Positions 837 to 7,493 of a stretch of 37,338 nt of DNA are shown here, piece by piece (positions within the stretch are counted from its first letter, which is position 1; every line of letters starts with the position of its first letter). The notes under the pieces were generated by a model. That model saw nothing but the letters and a program-made list of their open reading frames with translations, had not been told where the DNA came from and did not search any database. Source of the stretch: Thermoplasmata archaeon. Lineage in GTDB: Archaea; Thermoplasmatota; Thermoplasmata; Halarchaeoplasmatales; Halarchaeoplasmataceae. Position numbers and translations under genes: made by a program. The stretch spans positions 1 through 37,338 of the forward strand of contig PWHU01000046.1 in NCBI GenBank assembly GCA_003555395.1, in the 5' to 3' direction.

Positions 837-1703
837 TCACAGTATCAACTCGACCTCGATCCTTGCTCTCACGATGTCCAGTTCGTAAACATGTTCCTCG
901 TCAAAGTTGAGTTCTACGGTGTTTCCGTTGATCCCTACATTGTCCGCAGGAAGGTCTGTTTCATTCTCGAAATACCTTCTCCATACTTCGGGGTAAGCCG
1001 TTGTCAGCTCGAAAGAGAAGTTCCCAGGATCGTCGTATGAATTACGGAAGGAACTCACTAGTTCGCTAGTCACACCTACCGTACCTCTGCCACCTATATC
1101 TCTCTCGCTGCCCATCAAATCGACCATGGTGAGTCTGATCCTGTAGTCTCCACCGATCTCTTCTATCGATATGGGTGGTCGTGCTCTCATCACTTCGCCT
1201 TCGTCCTGCTCTAAGAGTATAGACCCATGCTCATATATGATGGTCTGCTCTTCAAAATATCTGTTATAAGCCCTAAGTGAGAGATTGCCTGAACTCCGCA
1301 GTATTGTCTCCTCTCCTGCGTGTGTCCAATTCACTCTCATGCCCCTATCTTCCTCAGCCGACCAACGAGGACGTAATCTGAGCACGCCTGGACTGCTGCT
1401 AGCGAAAAGAGGTATGCCCTCGGCACCAAGCCTTACCGAAGAATAGCGGGGATATCCCATTTGATCATTCAATATCAAGCTGTCTATACCGCCCTTCATC
1501 TCCGCGAACTGCCCTTTAACATCCTCCATGTGATAGGCCTCGTTATCCTCCATCCAAACAGGAACGTACTGTTGAGTGATCAACGATAGAAGGCTCAAAA
1601 ATACCAAGAGAGCCATGATGGTACCTACTGTGGTTGCAACTCCCTCTTCCGATTCTTCTACACTTCTCCTCTTTATTATTCCATCTTTTTTCTTCGATGA
1701 CAT
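837..1703 (-). CDS. Pilin-like secreted protein with single N-terminal hydrophobic helix
   Basis: 288 aa; short basic/acidic N-terminus then GVATTVGTIMALLVFLSLLSLITQQYVPVW, then a soluble beta-rich domain; co-directional with the secretion ATPase and platform genes. Confidence 0.75.
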   Translation of the reverse strand: MSSKKKDGIIKRRSVEESEEGVATTVGTIMALLVFLSLLSLITQQYVPVWMEDNEAYHMEDVKGQFAEMKGGIDSLILNDQMGYPRYSSVRLGAEGIPLFASSSPGVLRLRPRWSAEEDRGMRVNWTHAGEETILRSSGNLSLRAYNRYFEEQTIIYEHGSILLEQDEGEVMRARPPISIEEIGGDYRIRLTMVDLMGSERDIGGRGTVGVTSELVSSFRNSYDDPGNFSFELTTAYPEVWRRYFENETDLPADNVGINGNTVELNFDEEHVYELDIVRARIEVELIL

Positions 1704-1715
1704 GTGAACTACCTC

Positions 1716-3380
1716 TCAAGACCTGCTAAATTCCTTTTTCTTATAATCGTCCAATTTGCTTTTGGCTTTCTTCAACACCTTTTCTTTATCTCTATAATAG
1801 GTGGTGACCACCTGTGCGAAGTCACGATAGTTGTATATCTCTTCCTGGTCTAGATATTCGAGTACTATTTTCCTTCTTTTCACTTCTCTTTCCATCTCTC
1901 TTTGACTCCAATTCTTCGATTGAGCCACTTTATCATAAATATAACTATGACCGCTGTAGTTGAAGGAATCATCAGCGGGATTCCATGTGTAAGCTTTGTT
2001 CGTTATCAACTCTCCAGAATCTGGATCGGCACCTACTATCTCCGTCATAGCCTTGACCCTTCTAACCATCTTGGTGCCAACTTTTACCTTCGCTTGTAGA
2101 GCAACTATGTCTAAAGCGCCTACAAGAGCTCTCGGTAGATTGATGGGGTCGTTCTCCATCCTGTTCACCATGGTCTGGACGTCATCGGCGTGGAAAGTGG
2201 TATAAGCGCTTTTACCCGTAGCCATGGCCTGAAATACCACGTAAGCCTCTTCACCTCTTACCTCACCGACCATCATGTATTGGGGCCGCTGTCTCAGCGC
2301 TGCCTGCAGCAGCTGATACATGTCTATCTCGCCGGCCTTTTTCCCAGTGGATTCATCTACCTCTCCAAAACCGCTCCGAGTGAGAAGTGGAACCCAATTT
2401 TCATGCGGCAGGTTCAATTCACGGGTATCTTCGATACTGACGATCTTCTGTTGAGGGGGTATGAAAAGTAAGATCGCGTTCAAAGTTGTTGTTTTACCGG
2501 ACGCAGTACCCCCACATATCAGCATAGATTGTCCATTCTCGATGGCTATCCAAGCATACGCCATCATCTCTGGATTGAAAGTTTGGAAATTGATAAGATT
2601 GATTGGGGTATAAGGTTCCTCTTCGAAACGTCGGATGGTGAACGAAGATCCTTTCTGAGTCACGTGAGTACCCAGGGTTTCCTGCAAACGAGAACCGTCG
2701 GGCATGGTAGCATCTAACATGGGGTCCGCCACTGAGATGTGTTTACCACTCCTCTGCGCCAACCATATAACGTAATTATCCAGTTCTTCCGCATCATCGA
2801 AAGATACGTTAGATTTCATCGAACCATATTTCCTGTGGAAGACGTAAATGGGGATGCCCACACCGTCGCAGGAGATATCTTCCGGATCCGCGTCGTTCAT
2901 CATCACGTCGATGGGACCGAATCCAAGAAAATCCCTTTTCACATAATACAAGATCCTTTCTTTAGATTCTCTCCTCAATGTGATGTCTAGGTCTCTGATT
3001 ATCTCTTTGGTCTTGTGCTCAAGATATTCCTCTTCTTCTTCTTTGCTTTCAAGGGAGATCAGCTCGACTCTATCCACTATCTGGTCTTTTACCGCTTTCA
3101 ATACTTCTTCTTCCTCTTCGCTCAGTTGCGGCTCGATTACTTCGTATATGTATTCGTTAGATGTATTATCATACTTGATACGAACGTAGGTGTAAGGATC
3201 ATCAACCGCATTTGTCTCTATCTCTTTGACGTTCTCTTCTGCGATCTTGGGGACTTCCGTGATCTCGCCTCGGTAGGCGGATTTATCGGACTCACCCGCT
3301 GGAACGTAAACTTTTTTCGGCTTTTTTGTTCCTATTATCCTATCCAACTTTTCTCCGATACTCGTTGCCATATTAATCAT
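1716..3380 (-). CDS. Type II/IV secretion (GspE/VirB11/ArlI-like) ATPase, copy 2
   Basis: 554 aa; Walker A GGTASGKTTT, Asp box EDTRELNLPHENW, Walker B MMVGEVRGEE, His box TTFHADDVQTMVNRME. Confidence 0.95.
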   Translation of the reverse strand: MINMATSIGEKLDRIIGTKKPKKVYVPAGESDKSAYRGEITEVPKIAEENVKEIETNAVDDPYTYVRIKYDNTSNEYIYEVIEPQLSEEEEEVLKAVKDQIVDRVELISLESKEEEEEYLEHKTKEIIRDLDITLRRESKERILYYVKRDFLGFGPIDVMMNDADPEDISCDGVGIPIYVFHRKYGSMKSNVSFDDAEELDNYVIWLAQRSGKHISVADPMLDATMPDGSRLQETLGTHVTQKGSSFTIRRFEEEPYTPINLINFQTFNPEMMAYAWIAIENGQSMLICGGTASGKTTTLNAILLFIPPQQKIVSIEDTRELNLPHENWVPLLTRSGFGEVDESTGKKAGEIDMYQLLQAALRQRPQYMMVGEVRGEEAYVVFQAMATGKSAYTTFHADDVQTMVNRMENDPINLPRALVGALDIVALQAKVKVGTKMVRRVKAMTEIVGADPDSGELITNKAYTWNPADDSFNYSGHSYIYDKVAQSKNWSQREMEREVKRRKIVLEYLDQEEIYNYRDFAQVVTTYYRDKEKVLKKAKSKLDDYKKKEFSRS

Positions 3381-3381
3381 C

Positions 3382-4314
3382 TCACAGAAGTAATCCTATT
3401 CCTCCATACATTATCCTCAATGCTACAAAGCCTATTAGAACCAATATAAAGCTGTGCTTCATCCCGTTGGTGATCTTACCAGTTTGAAGTACGCCTGCCA
3501 CTATACCGTCTCCCACTGCATGTGCGAAAACGGCGAGGGTGAAGATATACTGTATGACAGGGATATGCTGCACCTGGATCTCTGCACCGCCCATACCTCC
3601 TGGCGCTTCCTGGGCTACGTCGTCCTCTAGTTCGACATCGGCCCCGGCCTGCTCCATCTGAGCTAAGAACTGGGTGTTAAGTATTATTATAACCACGATG
3701 AAAACTGCGAATGAAACGTAGATGACCGCAAGATAAGACGTCATAGCGATCCTCTGTTCATCCTCAGACTGATGAACCTTTTTAGCGTCTTGAGAGACCA
3801 TAGTCAATACGTCCGCTACGTTACCGCCTGCCTGATTGGCTTTAGCGATTATGGCGACAACCCTGTTCACCAATGGAGTGTCAACCCTTTCTGCAAAAAG
3901 ATTTAAAGCCTTATTTGCAGGAACGCCCCACTGGATCTGAGCCGCCATCTTCCTTATCTCGGGGGTCAATTCTCCGTAGCGTCCTCCGGCAGAAACTACG
4001 ATAGCGTCAGCAAGAGTCATACCGAATCTTCCTGCCTCTGAAACGTCTCTAAGAAAATCCGGAAGTCTTCTTTCTATTTGCTCTATCTGCTTTTGTTTAT
4101 AACTCACGTAGATGCCCACGGGTCCGAAGAAGACCATAGACGCTATCATCGACCAATCCAACGGTTCAAGAGGTATGGGTCCTGCTTCTAGGTATGAAAG
4201 AAGTGCTATGAACAACATTATAGCAGCACCTATTGTCGAACCGATGAGTACCTCTTTAGTATATCCAAGCGTCAGTAATTTCTCGAACGGAGTTCTTTTT
4301 TCTTTGCGAGGCAT
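3382..4314 (-). CDS. Type II secretion system F-domain (TadC/ArlJ-like) platform protein, copy 2
   Basis: 310 aa; LPDFLRDVSEAGRFGMTLADAIVVSAGGRYGELTPEIRKMAAQIQWGVPANKALNLFAERV plus C-terminal TM helices; between platform copy 1 and ATPase copy 2. Confidence 0.9.
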   Translation of the reverse strand: MPRKEKRTPFEKLLTLGYTKEVLIGSTIGAAIMLFIALLSYLEAGPIPLEPLDWSMIASMVFFGPVGIYVSYKQKQIEQIERRLPDFLRDVSEAGRFGMTLADAIVVSAGGRYGELTPEIRKMAAQIQWGVPANKALNLFAERVDTPLVNRVVAIIAKANQAGGNVADVLTMVSQDAKKVHQSEDEQRIAMTSYLAVIYVSFAVFIVVIIILNTQFLAQMEQAGADVELEDDVAQEAPGGMGGAEIQVQHIPVIQYIFTLAVFAHAVGDGIVAGVLQTGKITNGMKHSFILVLIGFVALRIMYGGIGLLL

Positions 4315-4346
4315 ATTATCACTTCATATCTTTATCTTCTACATTC

Positions 4347-5366
4347 TTAATCCTGATTTATCATCCATATTATGGCTATAAATCCTGCCTGTGATCCAGG
4401 GATCATTATACCCACGATCGCATAAAGTAACGGTATGGGATCACCGGCGCCCATACCCATCAAAGACATTATAGCCATGATGACCACTAAGAACAATGGG
4501 AACGCGACCACAACGGTGACGAAGGACTCGGCCAACATCCCCAGAGTTTCCATGTTTTGTTTTACCATCAACCGTCTCTCGTCCTGATACTCTTCCATCT
4601 TACTTTTGAAATAAGGTTTCAATTGTCCACCGGATGTGGAAGTGGTTATCACTCCCTGAAGAAATTCTCTAAAATTATCCGAGGGACATCTGTCAGCAGC
4701 TCTTTCTAGAGCGTTCAATATGTCTATCCCCAGGATTTCGGTGTCTCTTGTTATCAATTTTGCTTCTTCACAAACTTCGCCGTAAAGAGGCTGCTTAGAC
4801 AATTCTTTAAATATCATATCTATATTTATGTTGGCAGAGGACATAGAGGCGATGAAACTCATCGCATTAGAAAGTTTCTTGTCTATCTTGTTGCCCCTAC
4901 TGTTTGCTTTAAAAGATGGTGCAGATTTTAAGCCCATATAAGCAGCCGCTGGAACCAACACGACGGTCAAAATGGCTAGAAGGTAAGATAAAAGACCAAG
5001 AACTGGAGACAGTGCGAGAGCTAAAATAACAGCGCCTATCAGCCCGCCTAATGCTGCTAAAGCGGTACTCATCCAAACATATGCGATATACTCCTCAACA
5101 CGTATCTTCATATGAGCTCTCGTGAGATTGGCCTCGAGTTCCTCGTCGTGAACGTCCTTTCTCTCAACCAAGGGCCCCAGCATCTTCCAGCAGAATTTTT
5201 GATACGGTGTGAGCGTAAGATACTCAGGCACCGCGTCTTTAGGCAGTCTTTTTACGTGGGGACCGTATTTTTCTATATGATCCGTAACTTCGGCCCTCTT
5301 CGAAGAGAAAAATGATTCGTCCTTGAACTCGAATCCGCTGAATACGTCGCCGCTCTCAGCCATCAA
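4347..5366 (-). CDS. Type II secretion system F-domain (TadC/ArlJ-like) platform protein, copy 1
   Basis: 339 aa; KKLSNAMSFIASMSSANINIDMIFKELSKQPLYGEVCEEAKLITRDTEILGIDILNALERAADRCPSDNFREFLQGVITT plus TM helices; 4-bp overlap with upstream ATPase. Confidence 0.9.
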   Translation of the reverse strand: MMAESGDVFSGFEFKDESFFSSKRAEVTDHIEKYGPHVKRLPKDAVPEYLTLTPYQKFCWKMLGPLVERKDVHDEELEANLTRAHMKIRVEEYIAYVWMSTALAALGGLIGAVILALALSPVLGLLSYLLAILTVVLVPAAAYMGLKSAPSFKANSRGNKIDKKLSNAMSFIASMSSANINIDMIFKELSKQPLYGEVCEEAKLITRDTEILGIDILNALERAADRCPSDNFREFLQGVITTSTSGGQLKPYFKSKMEEYQDERRLMVKQNMETLGMLAESFVTVVVAFPLFLVVIMAIMSLMGMGAGDPIPLLYAIVGIMIPGSQAGFIAIIWMINQD

Positions 5367-7084
5367 TCTTCACCTCTCTTTCTTCTTATCCTTGCTAGAG
5401 TTTCATCTGGTTCTTTATAATAAGATGTGATGATCCTGGAGATATCCTTATAATGCGTCATGTCCTCTTCAACTAAAAATTCAATGACTTCGGTCCTTTT
5501 TTCGTGCTCTTCCATCATCTCTTCCTGGGTCCAATTGTTTGCCGTCATGATCTCATCAAAGTTATAACTGTGACCTTGCCAGCTGAAACTGTCGTTTTGC
5601 CTGTTCCACTTGAAAACGGTGTTGGTGATGAGCTCATCGCTCTCCGGCTCGAAACCCACTATCTCAGTTATCTCTCGTATCCTTCTAACCTGCTCGTCCT
5701 CGACTCTAGCAAAGGTCTGGATTATGACGAATCTGAGAGCCGTGAGTAAAACTCTAGGACAATTGATGGGAGGATTCTCCAACCTGTGTACCATGGATTG
5801 TACAGAATCCGCGTGCATTGTACTGTATGTAACGTGGCCCGTAGCCATAGCCTGGAACATAGTATGAGCCTCTTTACCTCTAACCTCTCCAACGATTATA
5901 TAGTCGGGTCTCTGCCTCAAAGCGTTCCTGACCAGATCGTACATGTTGACTTCGCCTGGATCCCTTCCCTTCCCCTGACTCATGGTTGTTCCGGAACGTG
6001 TGGTGCTTGGGATCCAATTCTCGTGGGGGAGATTGATCTCTCTGGTATCTTCCAAAGAAACTATCTTCAACCCCGGAGGGATGAAAAGAGTGTAGGAGTT
6101 CAAAGTGGCCGTTTTTCCACATGCCGTACCCCCTGCAACGATAGATGATTTTTCGTTTTCGACCATGAGCCAGAGATAAGCTATCATCTCTGGATTAGCA
6201 GTGTTATATTTTATCAACTTCACAGGCGTGAACGGTTCTTCTTTAAATCGCCTTATCGTGATAGAGGAACCCCTAGTCGAGACTTCATCGGCGTAAGTAG
6301 CCTGAACTCTGTGCCCTTCTCTAGTGGTCCCGTCCAATATAGGCTGCGATACCGAGACCTGTTTACCGCATCGCTGACCCAGTTGAATTATATAGGAATT
6401 GAGTATTTCCTCATTTTCGAACTTGACGTCTGTCTTTATAGATTCGTATTTTGAATGATAAATGAAGATAGGGATACCGATCCCGTCACAGGATATGTCC
6501 TCCACGTTCTCATCGTTCATCAGAATATCCAAGGGACCGTATCTAACGTAATCTCTAACTATGTGGTATAGTATCCTATTCTCAGTCATATCATTTATTC
6601 TCATGCCTCTACTCTCGATATAGCTTTTGACGGACTCTTTAATAAACTCCTCTTTATCCTTTGTCTGCATTGTTCTCCATTCGTAAGAAAGAGTCCTGTC
6701 TAGAGTGTCCTTGATCTTCTCCAAAAGTTTTTTCTCATCTTCCCGTAGAGTGGGCTCTATACCCTGATATATGTGTTCATTTTTTTCTTCATCGTAGATT
6801 ATGCGAGCGTAGCTGAAGGGCTCTTTTATAGGATTTAACTCTACGACTTCTTGATATTCATTTTCCAAAGCCGGGGCCTTTGTATATTCAGATATCCATT
6901 CTTCTCCTTTCTTACCTCTAGTTTTATGCTCCTCAACCTGTGTTCGTGGAAGCTTTACTCTTTTTGCCTTCTCGGGTTCAAATATAAGGGCAAATAGCAG
7001 GAAGAGTAGCAGGTTTATCATTGTAGATTTCTTTTCCATCGCGCAATTAGACGAGGGGGAAATTCTTCCGTACATATTGATCAC
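5363..7084 (-). CDS. Type II/IV secretion (GspE/VirB11/ArlI-like) ATPase, copy 1
   Basis: Up to 573 aa; Walker A GGTACGKTAT, EDTREINLPHENW, Walker B IIVGEVRGKE, His box STMHADSVQSMVHRLE. Alternative starts at 7039 or 7021. Confidence 0.93.
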   Translation of the reverse strand: MINMYGRISPSSNCAMEKKSTMINLLLFLLFALIFEPEKAKRVKLPRTQVEEHKTRGKKGEEWISEYTKAPALENEYQEVVELNPIKEPFSYARIIYDEEKNEHIYQGIEPTLREDEKKLLEKIKDTLDRTLSYEWRTMQTKDKEEFIKESVKSYIESRGMRINDMTENRILYHIVRDYVRYGPLDILMNDENVEDISCDGIGIPIFIYHSKYESIKTDVKFENEEILNSYIIQLGQRCGKQVSVSQPILDGTTREGHRVQATYADEVSTRGSSITIRRFKEEPFTPVKLIKYNTANPEMIAYLWLMVENEKSSIVAGGTACGKTATLNSYTLFIPPGLKIVSLEDTREINLPHENWIPSTTRSGTTMSQGKGRDPGEVNMYDLVRNALRQRPDYIIVGEVRGKEAHTMFQAMATGHVTYSTMHADSVQSMVHRLENPPINCPRVLLTALRFVIIQTFARVEDEQVRRIREITEIVGFEPESDELITNTVFKWNRQNDSFSWQGHSYNFDEIMTANNWTQEEMMEEHEKRTEVIEFLVEEDMTHYKDISRIITSYYKEPDETLARIRRKRGED

Positions 7085-7238: not shown

Positions 7239-7493
7239 TCAATCCCAGTTCAACCTTTTGGTAGTTCTTTCATCTTTAGTTGCTTTTTTGTATTCTTTGT
7301 AATGTTCTTTGCACAGATATGCCTTTCTTCCCGAACTATCTATTTTCAAGTCTGTTTTCTTGGTAACTTTCTTAGCGGAAAGTGATTTTCTCTTGTCTTC
7401 GTCACAGCCTTTCACATCACAAGTTTTTTTCTTCTTTCTTTTACTTTTTCTTTTGTGCTTCAAGATAGCACCCATATACCTCAAGGACGACAT
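7239..7493 (-). CDS. Small basic putative zinc-binding protein
   Basis: 84 aa; KHKRKSKRKKKKTCDVKGCDED...RKAYLCKEHYKEYKK, a CX4C...CX2H arrangement; TATA-like TTAAAATATT upstream on the minus strand. Alternative start MGAILKHKRK. Confidence 0.6.
   Translation of the reverse strand: MSSLRYMGAILKHKRKSKRKKKKTCDVKGCDEDKRKSLSAKKVTKKTDLKIDSSGRKAYLCKEHYKEYKKATKDERTTKRLNWD

Follow-up and report, generated by a model that had tools for sequence, protein, structure and literature searches.

A CdiP-type pilus operon with two ATPases and a split platform, conserved across the class Thermoplasmata

The operon and its relation to the CdiP pilus

The 37,338-nucleotide stretch of DNA analysed here (contig PWHU01000046.1 of assembly GCA_003555395.1; called the window) is part of a 2.03 Mb metagenome-assembled genome (MAG) of the Thermoplasmatota and carries a candidate type IV pilus (T4P) operon. 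Five open reading frames (ORFs) on the minus strand lie in the transcription order A1, Fa, Fb, A2 and P. This agrees in coordinates and strand with a preliminary description of the window, which had reported an ATPase, two platform proteins, a second ATPase and a pilin-like protein. The intergenic gaps are -4 bases (A1/Fa), +32 (Fa/Fb), +1 (Fb/A2) and +12 (A2/P), because of which the five genes near-certainly form a single operon. Its features are as follows.

5363..7084, minus strand: A1, an ATPase of the GspE2/PilB3 type, orthologous to the first of the two CdiP ATPases of Cuniculiplasma divulgatum; GTG start, precise start uncertain
6308..6319, minus strand: A1 signature EGHR, next to the arginine finger of the N-terminal domain (NTD); A2 and single ATPases have PDGSR here
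4347..5366, minus strand: Fa, N-terminal half of the platform, CdiPFa type; T2SSF domain
3382..4314, minus strand: Fb, C-terminal half of the platform, CdiPFb type; T2SSF domain
1716..3380, minus strand: A2, an ATPase of the GspE2/PilB3 type, orthologous to the second CdiP ATPase
2211..2213, minus strand: A2 signature, Lys replacing the first His-box histidine
837..1703, minus strand: P, pilin-like and a probable minor pilin; DUF7289, with a conserved hydrophobic N terminus that resembles a class III pilin leader

The preliminary description took this arrangement to be unreported, but it has been published for two organisms. The pilus operon of C. divulgatum encodes two ATPases (CdiPE1 and CdiPE2) and a platform split into an N-terminal protein, CdiPFa, and a C-terminal protein, CdiPFb; the authors of this ISME J 2025 paper describe the pair of ATPases as ‘unique’ and its second member as enigmatic (PMC12448462). 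Makarova et al. (2016) had noted two distinct ATPases in one T4P locus, of clade 2, in Aciduliprofundum boonei (PMC4858521). One genome in our collection (G128) encodes the solved CdiP pilin (8REY) with 100% identity over 123 residues, and has a second pilin gene roughly 0.9 kb away and the machinery roughly 535 kb away, matching the published account (PMC12448462). The machinery locus of this genome (L189) has the order A1-Fa-Fb-A2. The corresponding locus in G027, probably the A. boonei genome, has the order P-A1-Fa-Fb-A2. Judging from these sequence comparisons, the window locus is almost certainly an ortholog of the CdiP machinery, an archaeal clade-2 T4P. It is a further CdiP-type system with a layout already described in a cultured relative, and what we add is the conservation of that layout across the class.

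Fa and Fb each contain one T2SSF domain (Pfam), and the preliminary description had read the locus as a mirror of two ATPase-platform units, each single-domain platform protein having its own adjacent ATPase. However, the two proteins are only slightly alike (21% identity, E 0.006) and match different parts of fused platforms. In the NCBIfam ArlJ model Fa covers positions 5-243 and Fb positions 268-542, the UpsF and BasF models are split in the same way, and in a 679-residue haloarchaeal platform Fa matches residues 27-326 and Fb residues 301-677. Profiles built from the class assign Fa to the N-terminal half and Fb to the C-terminal half cleanly in three haloarchaeal fused platforms, and they also divide most of the ArlJ proteins tested, with a weaker Fb match. 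Fa and Fb are thereby identified as the predicted N- and C-terminal halves of a single two-domain archaeal platform (ArlJ/UpsF/haloarchaeal PilC), and the layout is therefore ATPase, split platform, ATPase. Gene fission has been inferred for Tad/Epd platforms by Denise et al. (PMC6668835), and many clade-2 loci carry two tadC genes according to Makarova et al. (PMC4858521). Two complete ATPase-platform units side by side, one ATPase for each single-domain platform, are highly improbable and this mirror or two-platform reading was rejected: it has the symmetrical gene order by family name and nothing else in its favour, the two genes correspond to halves of one platform, and the Fa-Fb pair also occurs in single-ATPase loci of other classes. 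The related suggestion of two coupled secretion units for one substrate finds no support.

Both ATPases are full-length members of the T2SSE/FlaI type (Pfam E 4e-33 for A1 and 6e-32 for A2). As previously described, they are collinear including the tail; they are 46% identical over 535 residues, and the shared tail matches Pfam PilB3_C. Among solved structures, Archaeoglobus GspE2 (2OAP) comes nearest, followed by FlaI. The pair is nearer to AfGspE2/PilB3 than to ArlI, Tad or PilT, separates from ArlI with a support of 100 in our tree, and is far more distant from CpaF than from GspE2 (E 6e-41 versus 1e-127). A1 and A2 score 443 and 408 bits with the ArlI equivalog model, under its cut-off of 550, and are not archaellum motors; with the TadA/CpaF-family model TIGR03819 they score 150 and 145 bits, under the cut-off of 373. 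Neither belongs to the PilT/PilU family in profile and solved-structure comparisons.

Walker A, Asp box, Walker B and His box are all present in both window ATPases, and these intact catalytic motifs rule out the possibility that one of the two is degenerate. The preliminary description was correct to list the four motifs as kept, but two residues within or beside them depart from it: the first His-box histidine of A2 is Lys, and in A1 an Ala stands directly after the Walker-A GKT.

P matches DUF7289 (Pfam) and begins with (D/E)(E/D)GVA(S/T)TVGTIMALLVFL, a sequence reminiscent of class III pilin leaders that is kept in nearly all 41 copies (two are start-truncated). The AlphaFold model of P is poor (pLDDT 40), with only a long N-terminal helix followed by strands. 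P is probably a minor pilin. In most families its gene precedes A1, whereas in the family of the window it follows A2. As noted earlier, the window contains no prepilin peptidase gene; an archaeal prepilin peptidase (Arc_PepC_II and Peptidase_A24) is encoded elsewhere in the same genome. PilA-type pilins are likewise encoded elsewhere in this genome, one of them with 8REY as its best solved match (E 6e-8), as is a standard archaellum locus, which comprises a single ATPase and a single platform protein of two domains. Upstream of A1, a minus-strand ORF at 7239-7493 of the window encodes a small protein that is rich in Lys and has a Cys/His pattern that may bind zinc; this protein is found at the operon locus only in the window’s own family.

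Conservation and divergence of the ATPase pair

The A1-Fa-Fb-A2 set is present in 67 complete copies from 25 families of the class Thermoplasmata, with median gaps of -4, 0 and +1 bases. The closest named records to the window Fb, from Thermoplasmata or Thermoplasmatota MAGs, are 75-85% identical to it. The gene order is nearly invariant, with exceptions at contig ends and in one genome (G029; 81% complete, single contig), in which locus L081 (G029:C1:2256000-2271000) has A1-Fa-Fb and A2 was not detected. The ORF directly downstream of Fb in L081 holds a run of N. Both ATPases are retained in all but one assessable genome having the system, and some lineages of the class are without the system altogether. 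The gene order singled out in the preliminary description is, for the most part, a routine one among related genomes as well as a described one, given these copies and the CdiP and A. boonei reports.

In a tree of 109 proteins, class A1 and class A2 are each set apart as one clade by a single branch (with support of 95 and 100, respectively). The A1/A2 split therefore predates the class, and a recent duplication is ruled out. The two clades, together with their different signatures and intact catalytic motifs, refute the idea that one ATPase arose recently in this strain by duplication and is under relaxed selection. Thus, the two-ATPase layout is not a quirk of one species and represents an ancestral feature of the class. 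In one family (f17), used for the comparison with the C. divulgatum operon, the fast-evolving A1 groups with class A1 and A2 is a long branch placed outside class A2. This placement is read as a long-branch effect because gene order and the DGSR signature agree with A2.

Both lines are strongly constrained and each carries a diagnostic signature. Across the class, the catalytic Lys, Thr and Glu and the arginine fingers are kept in approximately 100% of A1 and A2 proteins. Residues shared by the two lines comprise the G, K and T of Walker A, the Asp-box Glu, the Walker B Glu, the second His-box His and the arginines of LR.RP, DG.R and TIR. At 21 positions, A1 and A2 are fixed differently. In the A1 line, LDG..EGHR replaces LDA..PDGSR and Ala or Ser replaces the Thr after GKT, and the A2 line has the ancestral states at both sites. 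The first His-box position of A2 is Lys in most families and Arg in f17, in contrast to a His in 100% of A1 proteins and 88% of single ATPases.

The Arg of DGSR aligns with R223 of CpaF, which is an arginine finger (PMC12019362). In GmPilB (numbering derived from the structure chain, with an offset of 20), the first His-box His, H413, flanks T411, the backbone of which contacts T327 in the P-loop of the neighbouring unit (PMC5424180). By alignment with these proteins, A1 and A2 are predicted to differ around the inter-subunit ATP site but on different elements: the A1 changes lie next to the arginine finger of the NTD and within the P-loop, and the A2 change is at the first His-box His. These differences may reflect a mixed ring. 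A possible link between the signature residues of A1 and those of A2 across families, judged by eye, was dropped for having too few independent events.

Other classes of Thermoplasmatota contain single A-Fa-Fb loci, tandem A-A-Fa-Fb loci and A-Fa-Fb-A loci. In free trees, the two copies within f40/f34 group together, as do those within f29/f42. A single origin was not rejected by approximately unbiased (AU) tests, either for the first-position copies (p 0.08 with all of them, 0.38 with the A-F-F-A set) or for the second-position copies (p 0.13). Pairs across the phylum share two signature states: after GKT the first copy has Ala or Ser, and the His box of the second copy has Lys. The ATPase pairs of f36 look like an independent duplication. 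Tandem pilus loci in other classes are L148, L149; L151, L153, L175, L176, L183, L184; those of f40/f34 share the A1/A2 signature residues. Another archaeal A-Fa-Fb locus (L055, JAJPHT010000022.1) lies in a record titled Proteobacteria bacterium, a title that looks wrong.

Paired ATPase genes also occur in two archaellum operons of the class Thermoplasmata, which carry tandem ArlI genes (L105 5025-10148 in G048 and L106 1-2972 in G040); known archaella are reported to have one ATPase. These ArlI proteins score 722-740 bits where tested, against the cut-off of 550. The two copies in L105 are 57% identical to each other and the first copies of L105 and L106 are 62% identical. One ArlJ gene follows the pair in L105, and in L106 the contig ends at this point. 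The first ArlI copy in both genomes has lost the first His-box His (to Asn or Ile), so in pilus as well as archaellum operons this residue is changed in one member of an ATPase pair.

Possible roles for the second motor

Four genomes of one genus (g35), which we term Thermoplasma-type, keep the A1-Fa-Fb-A2 order with both ATPases shortened, at the following positions.

L107 5379-9442: Thermoplasma-type A1-Fa-Fb-A2 locus
L197 5139-9229: Thermoplasma-type A1-Fa-Fb-A2 locus
L213 4269-8338: Thermoplasma-type A1-Fa-Fb-A2 locus
L214 355-4440: Thermoplasma-type A1-Fa-Fb-A2 locus

Two of these genomes, each a single contig, are presumably those of Thermoplasma volcanium and T. acidophilum. In all, the Walker A of A1 is degenerate (GPDSPMKIA or GPHTELKYS) and its catalytic Glu is missing (VVNG, VIDT), as is its His box (MEID, IDID), whereas A2 retains Walker A, Walker B and His. 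Between L107 and L213, the rate of nonsynonymous substitution (dN, by the NG86 method) is 0.109 for A1 and 0.116 for A2; the synonymous rate (dS), near 2.5, is saturated, and only dN was compared. The g35 A1 thus looks like a pseudo-ATPase under purifying selection, which makes Thermoplasma a natural experiment in catalytic loss. A conserved ATPase relative that is expected not to hydrolyse ATP is hard to fit with an independent motor and easy to fit with a partner subunit. By analogy, the nearest precedent would be PilU, which needs PilT, even inactive PilT, although the authors argue against hetero-hexamers (PMC6762196).

We therefore lean, by a modest degree, towards A1 and A2 as obligate partners on the one Fa/Fb platform of this CdiP-type motor operon. 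Fa and Fb together form one membrane platform. The cytoplasmic motor beneath it would consist of the ancient paralogs A1 and A2, arranged as a mixed ring or as two touching rings and not as two independent machines. ATP hydrolysis would move the Fa/Fb platform, and the moving platform would lift PilA-type pilins, encoded in trans and cut by a peptidase also encoded in trans, into an adhesive filament in which P is probably a minor pilin. The conserved dead A1 of Thermoplasma-type genomes favours such a partnership, as do the derived changes that the two lines show class-wide around the inter-subunit ATP site. A narrower version, which we offer tentatively and hold to be the less probable side of the question, is an obligate heteromeric A1/A2 ring with asymmetric inter-subunit ATP sites, in which one subunit could lose catalysis and still be kept. 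No motor of the type IV filament superfamily is known to be a hetero-hexamer, so such a ring would be a novelty.

Several points weigh against partnership. The case for contact between A1 and A2 is indirect, built on patterns of conservation. PilU depends on PilT, yet hetero-hexamers of the two are argued against, so partners need not share a ring (PMC6762196). Outside Thermoplasma, A1 and A2 keep all catalytic residues, and each could form a homohexamer. The A1-Fa-Fb locus of the incomplete genome G029 may indicate that A2 is dispensable, or the gene may have been lost in assembly. Finally, the Thermoplasma-type copies are shortened and fast-evolving, with saturated dS, and may no longer make a pilus.

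The main rival to partnership is a division of labour in which extension of the filament falls to one ATPase and retraction to the other, each acting as a homohexamer docking in turn on one Fa/Fb platform in the manner of PilB and PilT. The preliminary description had proposed either a heteromeric motor or separate extension and retraction motors, and both proposals stand, with the dead but conserved A1 tilting the balance towards partnership. Catalytic completeness of both ATPases in nearly all genomes and their different fixed signatures suit a division of labour, and the analogy to bacterial PilB/PilT has been raised for C. divulgatum (PMC12448462). Nevertheless, C. divulgatum has both ATPases and showed no twitching (PMC12448462), neither ATPase is of the PilT/PilU family, a retained A1 without catalysis is difficult to accommodate, and CpaF and the Sulfolobus Aap motor each extend and retract with one ATPase. 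We consider this explanation unlikely, though the best of those that compete with partnership.

Less probable again are two extension motors that share one platform and differ in timing or regulation, for instance initiation versus processive growth. PilB and TfpB of Acinetobacter baylyi provide the precedent (PMC8213720), and both paralogs are intact within the same operon; however, the genes for PilB and TfpB do not sit together in a fixed cassette, unlike the nearly invariant A1-Fa-Fb-A2, and the Thermoplasma pseudo-ATPase weighs against the model. Functionally equal paralogs kept by dosage are very doubtful: 46% identity and full catalytic motifs would be compatible with redundancy, but not so the 21 differently fixed positions or the retention of both genes in all but one assessable genome with the system. 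The second motor is the interesting part of this system, and the class-wide data make the need for it a directly testable question.

Comparison with known systems

The window operon resembles CdiP in having two FlaI/GspE2-type ATPases in the platform operon, an Fa/Fb split, the same order as in L189 and a CdiPB-type pilin in trans. It differs in that it includes a DUF7289 pilin-like gene, which was not detected in L189, and in that the window organism additionally has a standard archaellum locus. The A. boonei locus is likewise a euryarchaeal T4P locus with two distinct ATPases; the published account, a single sentence, gives one pilA-like gene. P is upstream in G027 and downstream in the window’s family.

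Haloarchaeal T4P of the PilB3 type have a homologous ATPase (with the PilB3_C C-terminal domain), the same platform family and PilA-type pilins. Unlike the window, the haloarchaeal loci compared pair a single ATPase with a single gene for a two-domain platform. Tad/Epd systems (CpaF/TadA, TadB, TadC) also have a platform made of two one-domain genes, there through fission (PMC6668835), but Tad has one ATPase and belongs to a separate branch of the superfamily. Bacterial PilT/PilU likewise comprise two paralogous ATPases for one pilus (PMC6762196); in contrast to A1 and A2, they belong to another ATPase subfamily, are used alongside a separate PilB and are argued not to make mixed hexamers.

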